From a virus, in the IMG/VR virus record IMGVR_UViG_3300031787_000983, positions 1-21,115 of that record: DNA of 21,115 nucleotides; one strand, given 5' to 3'. A model generated the notes under the pieces. That model was not told the origin of the DNA. It saw only the letters and a list, made by a program, of their open reading frames with translations, and did no database searches. Positions 1,126 through 21,115 of the stretch are shown piece by piece. Position numbers and translations under genes: made by a program. The stretch's first letter is position 1; the number at the start of each line of letters is the position of its first letter.

Positions 1126-1689
1126 TTACTCGCAGTTGTATTTGCCTTTGTCGATTGTGATGCCATAAGGTATTGTTTTACGTCTTAAGTACATTCCTCC
1201 CGTCGGGTTGGGCTTTTGCGGATTAATCACGTCCAACCCATCGCCTGGATTATCGTAGAGCGGGTAGTCTTCGATATGTTCACGAATAAACAAAGTAGCA
1301 CGCCTCGCATACTCCCACGCTTTCTTTTCGTACAAATCGCCCATACGCTTTAACTCGTCCATGTCCACCGGCTGGCTATTAGGGTCTGTGTGACGCTGTA
1401 AGCCCTTGTTATTGACTTTGATGTGAACGAATGGCAGGCAGTCTTTAAGTACCCAATTTAGCAACGTGCGCTGAAGGTAGTCTTCAAGTAGCGTTCTGTT
1501 TGGATTGGTTAGGCTCCCTGCTGCGGCTTGGTTCTTGATTGCATTAAACAATCCAGTGCCGATTAGCGGCTCCAGTTTCAAGTCCTGCACGCTAAGTATT
1601 GACGATGTTAACAGCTTGCTATCAATGCTTTCGCTTATGTTGCTGTTAGCCTTGATATAGTTCTCCGATATTAAAAGTACCTGTGCCAT
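1126..1689 (-). CDS. Putative head-tail connector (DUF6712-like)
   Basis: A 187-residue, mostly helical protein. The N-terminal half carries a pattern I associate with a conserved Bacteroidota phage family (DUF6712-like, from memory): LLISENYIKANSNI, then DLKLEPLIGTGLFNAIK, then LLEDYLQRTLLNWVLKDCLPF. The C-terminal tail holds a Pro/Gly-rich stretch (NPTGGMY) and ends in KYNCE. Its start overlaps the portal stop by one base (TAATG), implying translational coupling. Following the portal and preceding a neck/fibre protein, it most likely forms part of the head-tail interface, as gp6-type connectors do. The connector role is inferred from position and helical character only; no catalytic motif is visible. 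Confidence 0.65.
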   Translation of the reverse strand: MAQVLLISENYIKANSNISESIDSKLLTSSILSVQDLKLEPLIGTGLFNAIKNQAAAGSLTNPNRTLLEDYLQRTLLNWVLKDCLPFVHIKVNNKGLQRHTDPNSQPVDMDELKRMGDLYEKKAWEYARRATLFIREHIEDYPLYDNPGDGLDVINPQKPNPTGGMYLRRKTIPYGITIDKGKYNCE

Positions 1690-3689
1690 TATTTCTTACG
1701 TGTTACAATAACCTGCTTCCATACGTGCCGGCAATAAGGCAAGTTTACATCCCTATTAGGGTCGTGATACCATCCACCCCTAGTTGCCCAAACGTCGCTT
1801 CCTAAGTCGTTTTCAATGCTGTCAATTTCCTGACGTGAATACAGTTTGTTTTCCGCTAGCATTTCGCGGCAAAACTCCCTGCTTGTTTCTAAGTCTGCGT
1901 CGGAAAATCCTGCCGCCCATGAGTAGCGGTAAAGCGTCAATAGCTCCACGCCTGAATCATTGGCATCTGCTACTTTCGTTCCTCTCGAGGTGGTTTCAAA
2001 TCCGGCGTCTGAGGCTCTAACAAAACCTTTTTCGCTGAATACGTCAATAGCCTTTAGCACGGTTTCGACGTCAACATCCAAAGCCTCTGCAATACTTACG
2101 GCTGTGATTTTTGGATTGTCACGAATAACCGATAACGCTTTTTTCTCGATGTCGCTTAACTCCGCTTGCTTTACCCTGATTTGCTTCGAGGCAATATCAA
2201 CCTCGCATTCATCCAATATCTCAAACAAGTCCACGGGCTGGCCTAACGTCTTGAATAACTTTAAGATTTCCGCGTCGTTATCGTGCTTTGAGTGCTTGTG
2301 CTTTTTATGAAGGCTTTGAAGCATCACATTGCCCTCTTCTGTTTTAGCCAAAATTCTTGTCGCTGTGGCTTCTTCAAAGCCGTACAAGTCAATAAGAATC
2401 TCTTTTGCTGCCGATGCTGGTATAGTTCCTGCGTTAACTTGACTAACGATGTCAATAATCCCTTGAATACCACCAACGCTACCCCTTAAATTTCCTTGTG
2501 CTTGCTTTTTCTCATAATCTACAGAATCCGTTTGCTGAGATTCCTGTAATTGAATACCGTATTTTTCGCTTATTAATTGACGAAGCTCGTCAACCTTCAA
2601 TGCTTGATTTATCGCTCCTTCGCTCAAAGGCAAATCCAATCCAATAGGCGCAAGCGGAATGACGTTAAGCACCTCTGAATACCCCATAATCATGGCGCAA
2701 TACTGCAAGGCTTTAATCAACCTGCGTTGCTTAGGCTCGATGTATGTGCGCTTAAACATCTCATAGGCTTCAATCATTTCAGATCTGCCGCCTAATTGGC
2801 CGGGCGTTCTAACTCCGAAAATCATGGGGCTAACAACCCTGTGCGCTACAAAGATTTGTTCCTGAACTCCGGCTTTTAGCTGCTCAAATTTCTTATCTAG
2901 GTCGTTTCCCTTCAAGTCTAGGATTGTCGGTGCTCTGTCCTGCCCATCGCTAAAAACCACCACAATATCTCCAGCGTTATCACTACCGCCGTGCTGCGCT
3001 TTGACCTGCTTAACAATATCGTCCTGCTCTTCGTCGGTAGGAATGCCGTTATTAAAGCTAATCATCGTGCCGGCTGAAAAGCCATTCACGATATTGTTTA
3101 GATGCCAGTTGGCTATTTCCGCGTCTGTCTGAATGCTAACAATCCCTTGACTGTATTCAGGTTTTGGGTAGGCTGTATTTCCTGACGAATAAAGCCTTTC
3201 ATACATGACAGATGTTTCCTCTGTGGAATCCAATCTATACCGCTCGAATGCCTTGTAAGTCTTTGGCCTTTCCTTCCATTTTTCGGAATAGAAAATCTTG
3301 TGCTTTTCTTTGGATAATCTCAAAAACTGATAAGGCAGGTGATAGACCTCGCTAACACCCTTACCATCCATGCGCCTAATAACCTGAATAGCATAGCCGC
3401 CAAAAACCTCTAAGTCCATCGCTAACAATCGCATGAACTCTGAGGCATTCATGAAGCGGTTTGGCCGCCACTTTGGCTCGTTGCCGTCTTGGTTAACCAC
3501 TCCCTCGCCTGATATGTAATCGACTTTACCTTTGACGATTGCACCATGAGCTGCGGAACGGTCAAATAAGGTTAGTAGGTAGTCGGGGTATCCGTTATCA
3601 ACTCCCCAGCTTATGTATTTGTCCGACTTGGTTTCCCTGCCTTCAGGCGTGCGATATGCGCCTAGTTTGATATTTACTACCTTATTCAT
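1689..3689 (-). CDS. Portal protein with C-terminal winged-helix-like extension
   Basis: A 666-residue protein. Residues 1-440 match the portal family of Bacteroidota siphophages: SWGVDNGYPDYLLTLFDRSA (28-46) near the N-terminus, a wing/clip region, FVAHRVVSPMIFGV (280-293) and a long helical stem region (about 300-380). Portals form the dodecameric ring at one capsid vertex through which DNA enters and leaves. A basic, His-rich stretch lies at 461-469. Residues 508-572 look like a winged helix: LSDIEKKALSVI, then ITAVSIAEALDVDVETVLKA, then EKGFVRAS. Residues 582-666 form a separate domain with TSREFCREM (602-610), RGGW (637-640) and CRHVWK (653-658), a pattern I recall from minor-head proteins of Bacteroidota phages. 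Overlaps the preceding gene by 8 bp. Portal assignment is confident; the role of the extension is unknown. Confidence 0.85.
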   Translation of the reverse strand: MNKVVNIKLGAYRTPEGRETKSDKYISWGVDNGYPDYLLTLFDRSAAHGAIVKGKVDYISGEGVVNQDGNEPKWRPNRFMNASEFMRLLAMDLEVFGGYAIQVIRRMDGKGVSEVYHLPYQFLRLSKEKHKIFYSEKWKERPKTYKAFERYRLDSTEETSVMYERLYSSGNTAYPKPEYSQGIVSIQTDAEIANWHLNNIVNGFSAGTMISFNNGIPTDEEQDDIVKQVKAQHGGSDNAGDIVVVFSDGQDRAPTILDLKGNDLDKKFEQLKAGVQEQIFVAHRVVSPMIFGVRTPGQLGGRSEMIEAYEMFKRTYIEPKQRRLIKALQYCAMIMGYSEVLNVIPLAPIGLDLPLSEGAINQALKVDELRQLISEKYGIQLQESQQTDSVDYEKKQAQGNLRGSVGGIQGIIDIVSQVNAGTIPASAAKEILIDLYGFEEATATRILAKTEEGNVMLQSLHKKHKHSKHDNDAEILKLFKTLGQPVDLFEILDECEVDIASKQIRVKQAELSDIEKKALSVIRDNPKITAVSIAEALDVDVETVLKAIDVFSEKGFVRASDAGFETTSRGTKVADANDSGVELLTLYRYSWAAGFSDADLETSREFCREMLAENKLYSRQEIDSIENDLGSDVWATRGGWYHDPNRDVNLPYCRHVWKQVIVTRKK

Positions 3690-7053: not shown

Positions 7054-8952
7054 TTACCCTACCCTGCCTCTGTTCTGTAACACGTCCACCTTATTAGTAG
7101 TGGCTCGAATATCGTTTTCAAGCACATACACGCGATTGCTTTCGGTGCTTGTCGTTTGGATAGGCTGATTTTGAAATAGTGCCGTTTGCGTCACTACTGG
7201 CGGCGCTGTTGGTGCTGATATGCTCATTGATGCGCTTCCGCTAAATCCACCACCTGCACCATTGGGCGGACGCGGCACCTGCACGCTCATAATGCGCCGG
7301 ACGTTTTGTAGGCCTGTTAGAACGATGCCTGCTGCTGCTGCATATCCTAATATACCACCTTGCGCTAATGCTTTGGTAGCTCCTACATAGGTGTCAATGC
7401 CTGCCGATGCCGCACCTGCGATTTTACCAAACTCTGTATTTTCGCCAATTGCACCACCTAACGCACGCACTCCGCTGCTAATAGCATTCATGAGGGCATC
7501 GCTACTTTTGGCTCGCTCTTCGTTGATGAGCTTTTCAGCGTCTGCCGCTTCCTTGGCTGTTAACGTGCCTTGCCTGTGGTAGTCTTTAATCAACGCTAAT
7601 CTATCGTCGTAGCTCAATCGCTCTTGCACACCTTCCTCAAACAAGTTTTGAATAGCCGCCTCTTTCCTTGCGGCTGCGGCTTCCTGCTGTGCTTTGGTTT
7701 TCTTTTCCTCGTTTTCCTTGTAGCGCTGATATTCTTCTTCTCTTGCGTCGATGTCAACTTGTTTTAAGTCTTGTTCAAGTTTCGCTCTACGTTCCTTCTC
7801 GTAAGCATCTGTAAGCGTACCGTTTAACCTTCGTTGCTCTATGTCTGCATCGAACTCTTGCCGAAGGATAGCTTTTTTCTTTTCGCTGCTATCCATCATT
7901 TTTTCAATCATGAGGCGTTCAAGCTCAAGCATCTGAGTAAGCTGTGTCATACTCATCTCCTTGCGCTCTTTTTCCTCTTTCTCTTGTAAATCCTTTAGCT
8001 TTTTCTTTCTTTGGTTGCCCCTTTCCTCTTCCTCTTTTTTATACTTTTTATCAAGGTCTGTAAGGTCTTTATTCAGCTTGGCGGTCAATGCCTTTTGGCG
8101 CTCATTAAACTCTTCGGTTGTGATTTCCTTCTTCATAAGCAGTTTGCTTTGCTCCGCTAACTGCTCTTGATAATCAAGCTGCCTCATGCGTTTATCGCGC
8201 TCAATACCGTTGGCCATAGCTTCGGTTAATAGCTTCCTGTTTTGAATTTGTCGGCCTATGCCGTCAAACGTCTTGTCGATTTCCTCGTTGAGCTTTTTTT
8301 GCGCTTCCTCAGCGTCTTCGGTTTTGCTAGCCCATTCAACAAGGGCATTAACCGCATAACCAATAGCCACAACTAACGCACCTATACCCGTGGATATAAT
8401 AGCGCCTTTCAATGCCGTGAACGCCGCGCCCGTTCCTGTGGTGGCCACTCCAAAAGCGCCCATAGTAGAAGTGGCCATTTTGGTGGCAACATCGTTAACC
8501 TTGGTGGCTACCGTCGAGCCTGTGATTACTGTCGTTAGCTGCTTAAATGCCCTCGGTGCATCCTCTAACGCTTGCAAACCTTGCGTTAAGGCCATTGCCC
8601 CCTGAAGCTGGACCAGCGCCTTGCTGACATTTTCGTTTTCAACGCCGAATAAGGATAGCGCACCTGTTGCCGCTTGGATACCACCTGCCATTGATGCCGC
8701 CGCCCTCGTTCCTGCCTCGAACACGCCGCCGCCTTTGAAGGATTGCACCGCGTCGTTGACATCATCCAACTGGTCACGCAATTCACCGGCACGCCTCGCC
8801 GCCGCTTGGGTGCGCTTATCGAATTCTCCAAACTCAGCCGCAAGGTTTTGAGCTTCCCTTTGAGCTTCCCTAAGTTCCTTTTTTAGGTTCTTAGTTCCTG
8901 CCTCGGCTGACTTCGTGTCAACCGTGGTCTTTATTACTATTTCCTCAGCCAT
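7054..8952 (-). CDS. Tail tape measure protein
   Basis: A 632-residue protein with tape-measure architecture. Residues 18-75 are coiled coil, followed by a Gly/Ala-rich stretch (76-180). A hydrophobic membrane-like segment covers 183-206 (IISTGIGALVVAIGYAVNAL). A very long charged helix with Lys/Glu/Arg repeats spans about 212-440. A second Ala/Gly-rich hydrophobic segment (509-548) ends in ITGLQNVRRI-like sequence, and a Pro/Gly linker and short C-terminal coil (607-626) follow. The tape measure occupies the tail lumen, sets tail length and is ejected at infection. By the usual rule of about 0.15 nm per residue, the tail would be near 95 nm (inference). Its start overlaps the stop of the hub gene by one base (TAATG). 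It sits after, not before, the tail-tip genes. Confidence 0.85.
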   Translation of the reverse strand: MAEEIVIKTTVDTKSAEAGTKNLKKELREAQREAQNLAAEFGEFDKRTQAAARRAGELRDQLDDVNDAVQSFKGGGVFEAGTRAAASMAGGIQAATGALSLFGVENENVSKALVQLQGAMALTQGLQALEDAPRAFKQLTTVITGSTVATKVNDVATKMATSTMGAFGVATTGTGAAFTALKGAIISTGIGALVVAIGYAVNALVEWASKTEDAEEAQKKLNEEIDKTFDGIGRQIQNRKLLTEAMANGIERDKRMRQLDYQEQLAEQSKLLMKKEITTEEFNERQKALTAKLNKDLTDLDKKYKKEEEERGNQRKKKLKDLQEKEEKERKEMSMTQLTQMLELERLMIEKMMDSSEKKKAILRQEFDADIEQRRLNGTLTDAYEKERRAKLEQDLKQVDIDAREEEYQRYKENEEKKTKAQQEAAAARKEAAIQNLFEEGVQERLSYDDRLALIKDYHRQGTLTAKEAADAEKLINEERAKSSDALMNAISSGVRALGGAIGENTEFGKIAGAASAGIDTYVGATKALAQGGILGYAAAAGIVLTGLQNVRRIMSVQVPRPPNGAGGGFSGSASMSISAPTAPPVVTQTALFQNQPIQTTSTESNRVYVLENDIRATTNKVDVLQNRGRVG

Positions 8953-16602: not shown

Positions 16603-16778
16603 AAGCCTGTGTTTATTAGGTAGTTAAAGTTCATCATGTAAACCGATGCTGTAATAGATAACCAAAAGGCCATGCAGGTACAGCAGCTTAAAGGCTTTGG
16701 CCAGTTCATCGCTGGGGAAAGCTCCGAAAAGGCCACGGCAATAGAGGCCACAATAAGGACGTAAGTTAGCTCAAGCAT
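16545..16778 (-). CDS. Small membrane protein with KPLSCCTC motif
   Basis: A 77-residue protein with hydrophobic segments at about 3-20, 37-49 and 52-68, likely two or three membrane spans. Between them lies PKPLSCCTCMAFWL (27-40), a Cys motif I recall from small membrane proteins in Bacteroidota phages and bacteria (KPLSC..C..FW pattern, like DUF1360). No signal-peptidase site is evident. Its start overlaps the GT4 stop by 13 bp. It could assist membrane-linked glycosylation or insertion of a phage product into the envelope; it is not an obvious holin, given the Cys motif and lack of a neighbouring endolysin. Confidence 0.65.
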   Translation of the reverse strand: MLELTYVLIVASIAVAFSELSPAMNWPKPLSCCTCMAFWLSITASVYMMNFNYLINTGLCMIAAFLIRKIMNWPNSF

Positions 16779-17845
16779 CTGTTGAAGTATTCAGCCCTTA
16801 ATTCGTTGACATCGTTTACGTTATAGTGCTTTCTTACCGCATCGTAGGCTATCGCTCCGCGTGCATGCACTTCCTGCCTGTCTTTCATTAGTCGCTGCAT
16901 GACCTTAAGGAATGCGCCGCGCTTGTTCCTTACCAAGATAACCCCATCGCCTAACAGCTCCTTGGCTCTTTGGTATGGTTCAACGTCGCTTGCGATAATC
17001 GGTAGGCCGAACGTTGCAGCTTCGATACACTTTAATTCAGACTTGCACCGCTCAAACTCACCATCAACCAAAGGAGCTAATGCCACGTCGAAACGGTTGT
17101 ATCCTTGGGCATAGTTGAATACAGATGCGGCATTGATAACATTCAGGTTGTCAGCCTCAGCCTTATTGTAGTTGGAAAATATCATGGCAGCTTTACGCCA
17201 AAAAACATCATTGTTCACGTAGCCTTGAAGTACTAAGCGATACATCGACCTATAAGTTGACAAGCTGTGTAGTGTTGCAATATCGTCGGCCAAGATGGTC
17301 AAGTCTTTCTCATGCGTCGCACCGCCGCACCAGCCAAAGCGAATACGCTCGTCGATTACCGGATTAAGTTTAAACTGTGGTTCGTTAAAATCAACCGCGT
17401 TTTTTAATACCACCGCGTCAACGCCTAAGTCTTGTTTAATCTTTTGCTTTAAATATTCCGTGCTAACTGTTACTAAATCAGCACGTTGTAAGTTTTCCTT
17501 GATTATTGGAAGCCTGTATTGGTATCTAGTATAATAAGGGTGGTATTTAGGGAGATGGTAATAGTCATCCAAGTCAACTATTACCTTAACTCCATCGCGT
17601 TCGCAGCAGTCAAACAAATCACGGTGCGACATATCAAACAGGAAGCGGTTAAAAAATACAGCGTCGTAACCGTCAAGCGTGCCGGGTGGAAAGTCTGTGG
17701 CAAACTTAGGGCTATTGGAGATGGTGAAACCTTTGTCGATTAATCCTTTGAGCGGAATGTAATAACGCCAGTACGTTACGCCATTCATCTTCTCCGTGTC
17801 AAAAATCGCCAGTATTGACTTGTTTGGCTTTTGTTCTAAATTCAT
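16766..17845 (-). CDS. Glycosyltransferase, GT4-like (GT-B fold)
   Basis: A 359-residue protein. The N-terminal Rossmann part includes SILAIFDTEKMNGVTYWRYY (10-29), where NGVTYWR is a common acceptor-site pattern, and NRADL-like VTVSTEYLKQKI (125-136). The C-terminal donor-binding part has RFGWCGGATHEKDL (169-182) and FDVALAPLVDGEF (252-264), then KSELKCIEAATFGLPIIAS (268-286), the E(x7)E-type nucleotide-sugar region of GT4 enzymes. It would transfer a sugar from a nucleotide sugar to an unknown acceptor, in the cytoplasm or at the membrane. The start at 17845 overlaps the sigma-like gene by 47 bp. Placement in the packaging operon suggests virion or host-surface modification. Confidence 0.8.
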   Translation of the reverse strand: MNLEQKPNKSILAIFDTEKMNGVTYWRYYIPLKGLIDKGFTISNSPKFATDFPPGTLDGYDAVFFNRFLFDMSHRDLFDCCERDGVKVIVDLDDYYHLPKYHPYYTRYQYRLPIIKENLQRADLVTVSTEYLKQKIKQDLGVDAVVLKNAVDFNEPQFKLNPVIDERIRFGWCGGATHEKDLTILADDIATLHSLSTYRSMYRLVLQGYVNNDVFWRKAAMIFSNYNKAEADNLNVINAASVFNYAQGYNRFDVALAPLVDGEFERCKSELKCIEAATFGLPIIASDVEPYQRAKELLGDGVILVRNKRGAFLKVMQRLMKDRQEVHARGAIAYDAVRKHYNVNDVNELRAEYFNRCLS

Positions 17846-18269
17846 CTATGTAGTGTCTTAATGTTCGTGCCGGCACCGTCGTAAGCTCGCTAACCTTGTT
17901 TATGCTGCCATGCTTCAATATCAGCTTAACTGTTTCGGCCAATATCCTTTCGCGGCGATTGCCTTGTAGAAAAAGCTCTATCGTACCCTCGTAATCTTTA
18001 AGGCAGTATGGGTCTATTTCGTCCGGCCTTTCTTCGTTGTCAGTTAGCTGCTCAGGCTTTTGCTTGCGGTGCTTTTCGGCTTGGCAGTTTATCGCCGTTC
18101 GCATGGCATAGCTCAGGATATGCCCTTTGGCGTGGATAGCTTCGAGGTCTTTGGTAGATAGTTTGATAACTACATCATGGAGTAAGTCCTTCCAATCGCT
18201 GCCGGCTAAACGCTTGCACGCTAGCCGGATTGCTTTGGAATTATACACCTCCATGATTAGGTTATCCAT
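17799..18269 (-). CDS. Phage sigma-like / HTH transcription factor
   Basis: A 156-residue protein built like the small sigma-related factors of Bacteroidota phages. DWKDLLHDVVIKLS (25-38) recalls sigma region 2 (the DLLQE-type helix), and HILSYAMRTAINCQAEKHRKQ (50-70) the region 2 DNA-contact helices. The C-terminal HTH spans about 108-148: ILAETVKLILKHGSINKVSE, then TTVPARTLRHYIDEFRTKAK. It probably directs or activates expression of phage late genes. It overlaps the terS stop by 8 bp and the GT4 start by 47 bp. A DNA-binding regulator unrelated to sigma is the alternative; the region 4-like HTH is the strongest part. Confidence 0.6.
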   Translation of the reverse strand: MDNLIMEVYNSKAIRLACKRLAGSDWKDLLHDVVIKLSTKDLEAIHAKGHILSYAMRTAINCQAEKHRKQKPEQLTDNEERPDEIDPYCLKDYEGTIELFLQGNRRERILAETVKLILKHGSINKVSELTTVPARTLRHYIDEFRTKAKQVNTGDF

Positions 18270-18720
18270 CCTTACGCTGCACCTCTACTTTAACCTCGGT
18301 TATCCGCGTTTCGTTGGTGGTTTCGGATTGCTCTTTTATACCCTCAATGCGTGCGATAATGTTCTCTTTGAGCGCACCTGCCGCGGCTAAGTCGGTGTTG
18401 TGTCTGCGGCAAAATGCCCTTATACGTGTAATGGTGGGGGTAAACTCAGGATGCTGCTCATAAAACTTCAAGTCTTTGAGCAAATCAAAATAAGCCAAAT
18501 ATCCCTCGAAGCCTATAAAGGTTACAGGCCGTTGGATAAACTCAGTTTGTTCGATTCCATCCTTACCCACAAAGTGTGTTTTCGGAATTGGATTGTCTTT
18601 TTGATACTGGATGTAATCTTCAAAAGCTCCCCAAAGCATTTCAGGAGTATCAAATTTGCGCGGCCTTCCCATCTTTTTTGGCTGTGGCTCAACTTTTGAC
18701 TGTGCTTTAATTTTGCTCAT
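18262..18720 (-). CDS. terS: Terminase small subunit (gp3-like DNA-packaging protein)
   Basis: A 152-residue protein when started at the ATG at 18720; a TTG at 18729 would add three residues, so ATG is preferred. GRPRKFDTPEMLWGAFEDYI (18-37) is the hallmark of the gp3-like/Terminase_6 small subunits, with an AT-hook-like GRP. RIRAFCRRHNTDLAAAGALK (99-118) and NIIARIEGIKE (120-130) are also typical. It recognises the packaging site and regulates TerL. The start overlaps the MazG-like gene by 14 bp. terL lies about 1.9 kb downstream, separated by four other genes. Confidence 0.85.
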   Translation of the reverse strand: MSKIKAQSKVEPQPKKMGRPRKFDTPEMLWGAFEDYIQYQKDNPIPKTHFVGKDGIEQTEFIQRPVTFIGFEGYLAYFDLLKDLKFYEQHPEFTPTITRIRAFCRRHNTDLAAAGALKENIIARIEGIKEQSETTNETRITEVKVEVQRKDG

Positions 18721-19342
18721 CGTCTGCAATTTTAGCGGCTTCCAAGGTCAAATCTTCACGTATAACGCCGTATGCTTTAAGGATTCTCTCCAGTTCCGGC
18801 TCCGGCTCAAAGAAGCTGTTAGACTTCAATAATTTACCATCTTCTCGCATGATTGCAAACTTATCGCCAACGGGCTTGATAAAGGTTCTGATACCTTCCC
18901 ACAAGTACTTTTCCTGCACTTCCAATGCTTCGATGTTCGTGTTAGCTAGCTTGCTCATGTTTGAATTATGAACGGCAAAAAAGCATTGATCGAAGATTAA
19001 GCCCTCGTTTAAGGCATCGTTTACCACCTCAGAAAGTAGCTTGTTGATTAGGTACAAAGGGCTGTGCTGATGGTGCTTGTAAATGACTTTTAAGTCCATG
19101 TCATGATAAACCCCTGCATGAAGGTAGTAGCCAATGAGGAAGTAATACGCATCGACTATTGCATCCATGCGACTAATTGGGTCCTTGGCCTCTAAGTATT
19201 CGTCAATCTCTTCCTGAATAAGTTTTTCATGGAAGCGCACTTGGTGAGCGGACAAAGCGTAACCCTGATTAAGGGGTAATCCGGCAGCTATTCGGAAATT
19301 CCGAACAGCCTCTATGTGGTCAATTGGTGGTGTGGTTATCAT
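18707..19342 (-). CDS. MazG/HisE-like nucleotide pyrophosphohydrolase
   Basis: A 211-residue protein of the all-alpha NTP pyrophosphohydrolase group. Metal-binding residues fit E44, E45, E48 in LIQEEIDEYL and D60, D64 in RMDAIVDAYYFLIG, the EExxE-x(11)-DxxxD pattern. VHNSNMSKL (124-132) and DGKLLKS (168-174) are shared with phosphoribosyl-ATP pyrophosphohydrolase-like phage proteins. It would hydrolyse a nucleoside triphosphate to monophosphate and PPi; phages carry such enzymes to adjust dNTP or alarmone pools, the exact substrate being unknown. Its start overlaps the small GRPK-protein stop (ATGA, 19339-19342). Extra C-terminal residues (175-211) are not typical. Confidence 0.75.
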   Translation of the reverse strand: MITTPPIDHIEAVRNFRIAAGLPLNQGYALSAHQVRFHEKLIQEEIDEYLEAKDPISRMDAIVDAYYFLIGYYLHAGVYHDMDLKVIYKHHQHSPLYLINKLLSEVVNDALNEGLIFDQCFFAVHNSNMSKLANTNIEALEVQEKYLWEGIRTFIKPVGDKFAIMREDGKLLKSNSFFEPEPELERILKAYGVIREDLTLEAAKIADDEQN

Positions 19343-19503
19343 TGGGGTTTTGTGTGTTTCTTTCTTCCGTACTTCGCGTTAACTGCCTGAATTGCAGCCT
19401 CATAAGTCGCTCTTTCTGAAGGTTTACAATAGTAGTAATACTGCCTCACCTTCTCTTCGCTTTTGGGTCTGCCTACCTTTGGCCTGTCAATTTCTTGCAT
19501 CAT
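19339..19503 (-). CDS. Small basic protein (GRPK motif), function unknown
   Basis: A 54-residue frame (53 from the second ATG at 19500) between the putative replication gene and the pyrophosphohydrolase. It reads MMQEIDRPKVGRPKSEEKV at its start and ends in AIQAVNAKYGRKKHTKPQ. It is Lys/Arg-rich with an AT-hook-like VGRPKS, as in small DNA-binding proteins. The start overlaps the preceding stop (19487) by 17 bp and its stop overlaps the next ATG by 4 nt (ATGA), the same coupled spacing as its neighbours, which supports it being a real gene. No family recognised. Confidence 0.6.
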   Translation of the reverse strand: MMQEIDRPKVGRPKSEEKVRQYYYYCKPSERATYEAAIQAVNAKYGRKKHTKPQ

Positions 19504-20365
19504 TTTGTAAAGGTAGTAATTTATTTATTTCCTGCTCGGTTTTGTCCAAAATTATTTTGTGATTTTCTTGGACTAGGTTTGATTTCGCTATCCAAACAGC
19601 CGAATTAAAAACCTTTTGATGAAGCTCCGACATCTTGCCAACTATGTCAGGCGTTGGCCTCTCAAATTCCATGACTTCCATTAAGGCGTTTTTAGCGCGT
19701 TTCTCCTCTCTGTCGGTGGTATTACCCCACTCTTGTAACATCTGCCTTCCAGCGGCCTGAATGGCGGCAAATTTCGCATTTGCTGAGATGGTCAACCAGC
19801 CACGTTTTACAGCTTGGTCAAAAATCCATACTCTCGCCCCTTCTTCGATGGTTCTAAGCACTCGACTTGTGACGCTTTCGAGTTTCTCTTTCGGGGTGAA
19901 AACTCCCATTTCGTAAGCTAAGCGGCGAATGTGTTGCAGATCTTCGAGGTTCTGATCTTCGGGTGTTTTGACTTTTTCGGGCAAAGCGGCTGTTTCTGCT
20001 TGTTTAATTGCCTCGGCGCGTTCTTGACTGGTGGAGTATTGCCGTATCCATTCCATCAGGAGTTTGGCGCTAAATGTGACGTAATCGCCGTATTTCCCGA
20101 CTTTACCTTCTTGAAAAACCACGATCAGCTCTTTGGCTTTCATGTGTGGATAGTTGCGTTTGAGGTCGGGAACTATCAACCTTGCGCCTAATTCCACCAC
20201 TTCCGGTTCAATTTTTTGTCCGCAAAAGTTCATGACATCAAGCCATAACTTTCGGATTCCTGCCTCTAACTTTTCGTTTTCAGTTTGTGCAATTGTTGCA
20301 CCTACTCGCGCTTCGGCTATTCGAGTGCTAAGTGTTTTTTGGGTGTTAACCGAAAGGGAATTCAT
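19487..20365 (-). CDS. Putative replication-associated protein, function unknown
   Basis: A 292-residue protein, largely helical, with no catalytic motif I can name. Residues 84-109, FQEGKVGKYGDYVTFSAKLL then MEWIRQY, resemble a short motif (G..GKYGDY......L..W...Y) I recall from conserved proteins next to initiators in Bacteroidota phages, where helicase-loader-like roles are suspected. Its C-terminal half is rich in Lys/Glu helices (TPKEKLESVTSRVLRTIEEG). It overlaps the initiator-like gene by 20 bp and is followed by the small GRPK gene. A replication role is inferred from position only. Confidence 0.5.
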   Translation of the reverse strand: MNSLSVNTQKTLSTRIAEARVGATIAQTENEKLEAGIRKLWLDVMNFCGQKIEPEVVELGARLIVPDLKRNYPHMKAKELIVVFQEGKVGKYGDYVTFSAKLLMEWIRQYSTSQERAEAIKQAETAALPEKVKTPEDQNLEDLQHIRRLAYEMGVFTPKEKLESVTSRVLRTIEEGARVWIFDQAVKRGWLTISANAKFAAIQAAGRQMLQEWGNTTDREEKRAKNALMEVMEFERPTPDIVGKMSELHQKVFNSAVWIAKSNLVQENHKIILDKTEQEINKLLPLQNDARN

Positions 20366-21115
20366 CGTTGCTTGTTGGGTTTTTGCGAAGTTCTTGGATT
20401 AGCGAATTGGCGGCGTGCCACTGTTTAGATTTTTCCGGCGTTTTGAAATTGATGTACTCGGATTTTTTGCGCTGCTGGCAGTAGTTGGAAAAATGGGTGT
20501 AAAGCCCTTTCCATGTGTTGTGATAAAATTCGTCTTTTATGAAAAACTTTTGAAAACAATCTTCAACTATTTCAGGGGTTAACCAAGATTGCATTAAAAC
20601 AAATTTATTGATTCGAGGCTGTAACCACTGTTGGAGCTTTTCGTCTTGGAAGGATTCAAATTTTTCACCTTCAATCCAAAACCCCGGCTCAGATTTCGAC
20701 TTCGAAATTTTTTTCGAAGGCGGTTTAGTATCCTGTGGGTTTTCTAGTATGGTTAAAGTATCATTAGACTGTTGAACTACTAGAATGTTACTCTTACTTC
20801 TTTCTTCTTTATTCTTATTTCTTATTTCTGTCCTTACTTCCGTAGCTACTTTTGTAGCTACAATTGTAGATGCTTTTGCATACCTACTTTCAACGTTTTT
20901 CCTCATTTTCTCGCTCAAACCGTCGATTTTGCCGATTAAGGGTTCGTAGTATTTTGAAAAAAAATGACCGTTTCTTTGCTCGAAAAGCGATTCACTTTTC
21001 AGGAAAAACTGAATGATTTTTGAAGGAATTTTGTATCGTTTTTTGATAAAATTGATGTCGATTTCGTCAACACTTTTGTCGTCACTTTCTACAATGTACA
21101 GGCTTAAAAGCATGA
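20346..21115 (-). CDS. Replication initiator-like protein (N-terminus possibly outside window)
   Basis: The frame is open to the right edge; the first visible ATG is at 21113, but the true start may lie beyond it. Residues 1-80 match the end of a Lin1244/Lin1753-like (DUF4373) replication domain: IPSKIIQFFLKSESLFEQRNG then FFSKYYEPLIGKI, typical of phage initiators, usually preceded by about 40-60 residues not seen here. The middle (79-140) is a low-complexity Lys/Thr/Asn linker encoded by 12-bp repeats. The C-terminal domain WLTPEIVEDCFQKFFIKDEF (177-196), then HNTWKGLYTHFSNY, resembles DnaD/initiator C-terminal helices. It likely binds an origin, perhaps inside this gene, and loads the helicase. 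Codon use is AT-richer than its neighbours, common in initiators. Confidence 0.65.
   Translation of the reverse strand, partial: MLLSLYIVESDDKSVDEIDINFIKKRYKIPSKIIQFFLKSESLFEQRNGHFFSKYYEPLIGKIDGLSEKMRKNVESRYAKASTIVATKVATEVRTEIRNKNKEERSKSNILVVQQSNDTLTILENPQDTKPPSKKISKSKSEPGFWIEGEKFESFQDEKLQQWLQPRINKFVLMQSWLTPEIVEDCFQKFFIKDEFYHNTWKGLYTHFSNYCQQRKKSEYINFKTPEKSKQWHAANSLIQELRKNPTSNDEFPFG
20788..20819 (-). other. AT-rich polypurine tract next to the repeats
   Basis: The minus strand here runs AAATAAGAATAAAGAAGAAAG and continues almost purine-only with few T. It borders the 12-bp repeats directly and would melt easily, as expected for a DNA-unwinding element of an origin. It encodes a Lys/Asn/Glu-rich linker. 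Confidence 0.4.
20820..20879 (-). repeat. Iteron-like 12-bp tandem repeats (candidate phage origin)
   Basis: Five consecutive 12-bp units on the minus strand: GCAAAAGCATCT, ACAATTGTAGCT, ACAAAAGTAGCT, ACGGAAGTAAGG, ACAGAAATAAGA, of rough consensus ACAaaAGTAgcT. They encode residues 79-98 (AKAS TIVA TKVA TEVR TEIR). Within them are perfect palindromes CTACAATTGTAG and TTGTAGCTACAA and a second GTAGCTAC. An AT-rich tract follows. Lambda-type phages often hold their origin as iterons inside the initiator gene, so this is a strong origin candidate; function is inferred. Confidence 0.5.

Follow-up and report, generated by a model that had tools for sequence, protein, structure and literature searches.

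The window analyzed here is the entire 21,115-bp record IMGVR_UViG_3300031787_000983, probably a fragment of a phage genome, with the region upstream of the gene under study lying outside it. Its main genes, including those for the terminase, the portal, a head protein, and the tape measure, are carried on the minus strand. The terminase has its closest relatives in a few viral contigs (∼43 to 47% identity) and in Bacteroidales genomes (∼42 to 43%), which makes a host among the Bacteroidota probable. At the right edge of the window lies a candidate replication initiator gene (20346-21115, minus strand), referred to as the focal gene. It is open at the window edge on its 5′ side, with its first visible ATG at 21113, and about 50 N-terminal residues of its product are probably encoded outside the record. 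Its end is overlapped by the start of a DUF6633/phrog_35728-like partner gene (19487-20365, minus strand), which matches phrog_35728 with an E value of 3.9e-05 and PF20338 with an E value of 2.5e-04 (21.9 bits, under the 27-bit cut-off of that family). By its position only, the partner is a candidate helicase loader.

On the coding (minus) strand, the focal gene contains four abutting 12-bp inverted-repeat units at 20834-20881 and a degenerate fifth at 20822-20833. In coding-strand order, they are ATGCAAAAGCAT (20870-20881), in which the inverted repeat ATGC/GCAT flanks AAAA and with which the array begins at nucleotide 233 of the gene; CTACAATTGTAG (20858-20869), a perfect palindrome; CTACAAAAGTAG (20846-20857), the reference copy for counting matches; CTACGGAAGTAA (20834-20845), which is degenerate; and GGACAGAAATAA (20822-20833), a poor copy that runs into AGAAATA-like heptamers. 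Counted by hand against the third unit, units 1 to 5 share 8, 10, 12, 9, and 7 of 12 positions. Of the five 12-bp repeats of the preliminary description, three are thus good copies and the other two poor, and the array that it placed at 20788-20879 in fact starts at 20881. The interlocking palindromes that it named, CTACAATTGTAG at 20858-20869 and TTGTAGCTACAA at 20852-20863, are both there and are the only perfect 12-bp palindromes in the 21,115 bp. In addition, the window contains two copies of GTAGCTAC, each of them inside the array, where GTAGCTAC-AAAA-GTAGCTAC (20842-20861, minus strand) could form an 8-bp stem in single-stranded DNA. Folding analysis brought out a further inverted repeat, GTAGgtATGC-AAAA-GCATCTAC (20866-20887, minus strand). 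On folding, the dyad part gives two hairpins with AAAA loops that are far more stable than expected from shuffled sequence; the 116-nt region has a z score of −5.48, with none of 200 shuffles being as stable. A search for an RNA element in Rfam gave no match above threshold; one sub-threshold hit lies outside the array. A single near-copy of the second unit, CTACAATGTAC, is found at 21089-21099 in the upstream part of the focal gene; this is possibly an outlying site, and it could be due to chance. When viral contigs were searched for the dyad core as an exact pattern, no match was returned.

The 12-bp units encode TIVA/TKVA/TEVR/TEIR. Because 12 nucleotides correspond to four codons, part of this period reflects periodicity of the protein, and similarity at lag 12 alone is weak evidence; of 10,000 synonymous shuffles, 366 reached it. 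A tandem run of four inverted-repeat 12-mers, on the other hand, is rare, appearing in 2 of 3,200 shuffles.

The heptamers form an array of about six AGAAATA-like copies at 20788-20829 (minus strand; TRF period 7, 6.1 copies), which is polypurine on the coding strand. An adjacent polypurine, AT-rich tract had been noted here before, and the tract is indeed present; however, it is itself a six-copy heptamer array, which the earlier reader underrated. No other DNA repeat in the focal gene is as strong as this lag-7 signal, which is also statistically the strongest part of the whole feature. The array scores 19, compared with 8.8 ± 1.2 under the null, a score reached by none of 10,000 gene-wide synonymous shuffles (the out-of-frame null) and by none of 5,000 permutations confined to the linker. 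Under local codon permutation, the P value is 0.001, with lambda O, the positive control, giving 0.03. A period of 7 nucleotides is out of frame and therefore cannot arise from a protein repeat, and the heptamer period is explained by neither the protein nor its codon usage. Of the other window genes tested, only the large terminase gave an out-of-frame repeat signal, and this was weak. A duplex stability scan placed the least stable 45-bp window of the 21-kb record at 20781-20825, and on its sequence the heptamer array at 20788-20829 is a candidate DNA unwinding element. A lambda-type origin should have repeats in the linker-coding region beyond what protein and codons lead one to expect, as seen here at lag 7 and in the 12-bp units (2/3,200), and an easily melted AT-rich tract downstream of the repeats, as seen in the least stable 45 bp. 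GC skew, suggested earlier as a check, was uninformative on the 21-kb record, with no switch marking an origin.

The focal gene is read as an initiator because of its position, directly upstream of and overlapping a partner of the DUF6633/phrog_35728 type. In viral loci L018, L013, L118, L033, and others, the gene that precedes and overlaps the homologous partner matches replication-initiation, O-like, or DnaD-like helicase loader PHROGs. A search with the partner alignment yielded 80 viral loci, of which 73 were scanned; an adjacent upstream gene of at least 140 amino acids was present in 65 of the 73, giving 40 non-redundant genes in this position, the initiator slot. When eight of the 40 were run against PHROGs, seven matched replication-initiation, O-like, DnaD-like, primosomal, or replisome-organizer families. 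The initiator-slot gene of L243 matched only families of unknown function.

Out-of-frame repeats (P < 0.01) were found in 17 of the 40 initiator-slot genes, compared with 1 of 40 partner genes, counts that are not independent because many of the 40 are related. With a stricter local null, in which codons were permuted only around the array, 10 initiator-slot genes and 1 partner gene remained. In nine of these ten, the repeat period is 11, 22, or 23 bp, approximately one or two helical turns, and 22-bp arrays occur in further genes (L017, L018, L053, and L191). By our own reading, no fewer than seven separate motif families underlie these counts. In L243, L265, and L266, CATATG or one-base variants of it recur every 11 bp in different codon frames, so that no protein-level cause explains them. 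Across the initiator-slot genes of L243, L251, L258, L265, and L266, the CATATG sites fall into two groups, one in the part encoding the N-terminal domain (about nucleotides 130 to 165) and one in the linker (about nucleotides 295 to 350), often in 11-bp steps and in different frames. Several relatives, for example L118, L208, and L204, are without a significant array. Short-unit A-rich or purine repeats lie 3′ of, or near, the iterons in L195, L210, L211, L231, and L235, and the 3′ flank of the arrays is the purine-richer one in 22 of 25 cases (the window and lambda included), a count for which protein composition and common descent are confounders. The A-rich 3′ flank in relatives is consistent with the origin model.

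Initiator-slot genes such as those of L017, L018, L191, L195, L236, and L243, among others, share with the focal gene its operon position, a layout of N-terminal domain, linker, and C-terminal domain, and out-of-frame repeats within or close to the linker, in some cases with short A-rich or purine repeats 3′ of them. They differ in that their iterons are mostly phased at 11, 22, or 23 bp, whereas the focal gene has 12-bp and 7-bp units, and no sequence similarity is detectable between the focal protein and their products. Three of these genes bear on which domain may read the repeats. L018 and L017 have a common iteron, with a WGGCRnnATTGCCA-like core and 22-bp spacing, and are 84% identical in their N-terminal domains and 68% in their C-terminal domains; L018 and L013 have differing repeats and are 56% identical in their N-terminal and 78% in their C-terminal domains. 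In these three genes, the iteron sequence tracks the N-terminal and not the C-terminal domain, a pattern due in part to the domain and the linker being physically linked. This is the expectation if the N-terminal domain binds the repeats.

The focal protein itself was matched significantly by no entry in Pfam, PHROG, NCBIfam, or the PDB, and no relatives of it were present among the viral contigs, phages, plasmids, and PDB entries searched. Likewise, no close relative of the focal gene carrying this array was found in the collections searched, which may omit records very near the window. With phmmer, the focal and partner genes gave nothing below an E value of 0.4 in the first 147 loci except the window itself. 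A search for homologues in 396 genomes of one phylum gave weak matches, and among the nine whose loci were read, none was initiator-like. A single-sequence AlphaFold model had a pLDDT of 41 and was unusable. There was no match to O-like PHROGs up to an E value of 1, and hhalign comparisons with O-like C-termini and with 22 C-terminal domains of relatives stayed at chance level. No Pfam match exceeded the curated cut-off for the Lin1244_N (PF14297) or DUF7833 (PF25200) profile. In hhalign, the first residues of the focal protein align with the second half of Lin1244-/DUF1376-type N-terminal domains, slightly above shuffled controls, a placement that fits the absent N-terminus. Profile comparisons with initiator sets are suggestive at best, and the relationship to Lin1244-/DUF1376-type N-terminal domains is likewise a suggestive one. 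A literature search of incomplete coverage found no paper that names DUF6633, DUF7833, or Lin1244.

Origins of this layout are known. In lambda, iterons and an AT-rich tract lie in the middle of O, and for unwinding it is enough to have two of the iterons and the AT-rich region (as cited in PMC7466680). In SPP1, oriL lies within gene 38 and consists of direct repeats and an AT-rich unwinding element, a second origin, oriR, is located ∼13 kb from oriL, and the helicase loader is separate from the origin-binding protein (PMC6316719). As in lambda, iterons occupy the middle of the focal gene, where the linker is encoded, a purine AT-rich tract lies downstream of them, and, as with O and P, a partner gene, here a candidate loader, is directly downstream and overlapping. 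It shares with SPP1 the repeats and candidate AT-rich unwinding element inside the gene of a putative origin-binding protein, with a separate gene as candidate helicase loader. However, lambda has four annotated 18-bp iterons ∼20 to 24 bp apart, in contrast to the abutting 12-bp units and subsequent 7-bp array of the window; the focal protein shows no detectable homology to O, and its partner is DUF6633-like, not P. The second origin of SPP1 may be a further difference.

The preliminary description proposed that an initiator gene carries its own origin in its linker, as in lambda O, and this proposal is supported in part. Layout, synteny with dozens of initiator-slot genes, the out-of-frame repeats of relatives, and low duplex stability speak for this; the likeness to O does not extend to detectable homology with it or with any initiator profile, and the N-terminal part lies outside the record. 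The likeliest competing explanation is that the segment encodes a low-complexity, charged, helical linker (TIVATKVATEVRTEIRNKNKEERSKS) whose repeats come from residue periodicity, A-rich codons, and replication slippage, without a function of the DNA. Slippage in 21-nt steps would preserve the frame, the 12-nt period equals a 4-residue period with only mildly unusual similarity at lag 12, and other window genes contain 12-bp doublets of equal or higher score. We nevertheless regard this as unlikely, since the 7-nt repeat, the strongest one, runs out of frame and stands out under both the gene-wide and the local synonymous null, since the 11-, 22-, and 23-bp iterons of relatives present one motif read in different frames, and since such a signal is absent from the partner genes and from most of the other genes tested in the window.

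It is less probable still that the feature is a regulatory element of DNA or mRNA, such as an autoregulatory operator or transcript hairpins. Proteins with a wHTH fold often repress their own operons, and dyad sites and two stable hairpins would suit such a role; however, the array lies in mid-gene and not at a promoter, arrays recur in the corresponding gene part across initiators, and regulation gives no reason for the adjoining stability minimum and purine heptamers. Finally, the true origin could be elsewhere, upstream of the gene or in an early region outside the record, with the array as a secondary initiator-binding site or relic. SPP1, with oriL in gene 38 and oriR ∼13 kb off, provides a precedent (PMC6316719), the record is a fragment whose upstream region falls beyond the window, and a near-copy of the site occurs at 21089-21099. 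Against this stands the adjoining unwinding-element candidate, which is complete and has the lowest duplex stability of the window, and we consider an origin elsewhere very improbable.

The reading we favor, with considerable confidence, is that the feature is a phage replication origin of the lambda/SPP1 type, embedded where the phage's own initiator gene encodes the linker, with iterons and an AT-rich unwinding element. Such a probable origin is a known kind of layout, here extended to a broad phage group. Points against it are the 12- and 7-bp periods, which differ from the 11/22-bp helical phasing typical of relatives, the share of protein periodicity in the 12-bp period, the lack of a detectable homologue of the protein and of a close relative with this array in the collections searched, the uninformative GC skew, and the relatives in which no array is significant. 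By analogy with lambda and SPP1, the 12-bp dyad units would be iterons to which the encoded protein binds through an N-terminal domain of winged-helix fold, the resulting complex would strain the adjoining AT-rich heptamer array until it opens, and the overlapping DUF6633-type partner, or the C-terminal domain of the initiator, would deliver the replicative helicase to the exposed strand. More tentatively, and with slightly more doubt than belief, we propose that phages with DUF6633 partners, for which terminase relatives indicate Bacteroidota hosts, systematically have their origin within the initiator gene and that their iterons are helically phased, the iteron sequence being swapped together with the DNA-binding domain of the initiator. 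The window would then be an outlying variant with abutting 12-bp dyads, a 7-bp unwinding array, and an initiator without a recognizable homologue. If true, the origin of a phage with an unrecognizable initiator could be read from sequence alone, and out-of-frame repeats upstream of DUF6633-type partners would predict origins and initiator binding sites in many uncultured phages. It would also provide a natural series of domain/iteron pairs for studying how initiator DNA specificity changes and give DUF6633 proteins a testable role in replication.

Several other genes of the minus strand are described here as separate observations. The portal-like gene (1689-3689) has a C-terminal extension matching the winged-helix family PF13412 (E value, 3.2e-06), unusual in a portal protein; judged from this match, the gene could be a fusion. 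A MazG/PRA-PH-like nucleotide pyrophosphohydrolase gene (18707-19342; phrog_671, E value of 9.2e-19) lies directly upstream of the small terminase gene. Between the latter and a glycosyltransferase-like gene is a weak sigma-70/ECF-like gene (17799-18269), weakly similar to genes in L013, L018, L019, and L035. The glycosyltransferase-like gene (16766-17845) adjoins the large terminase, and similar-looking genes are found near the terminase in L002 and L033. Within the tape-measure gene, a strongly strand-biased purine/pyrimidine tract at 7991-8050 is as extreme in purine content as the focal tract and probably reflects a K/E-rich coiled coil.
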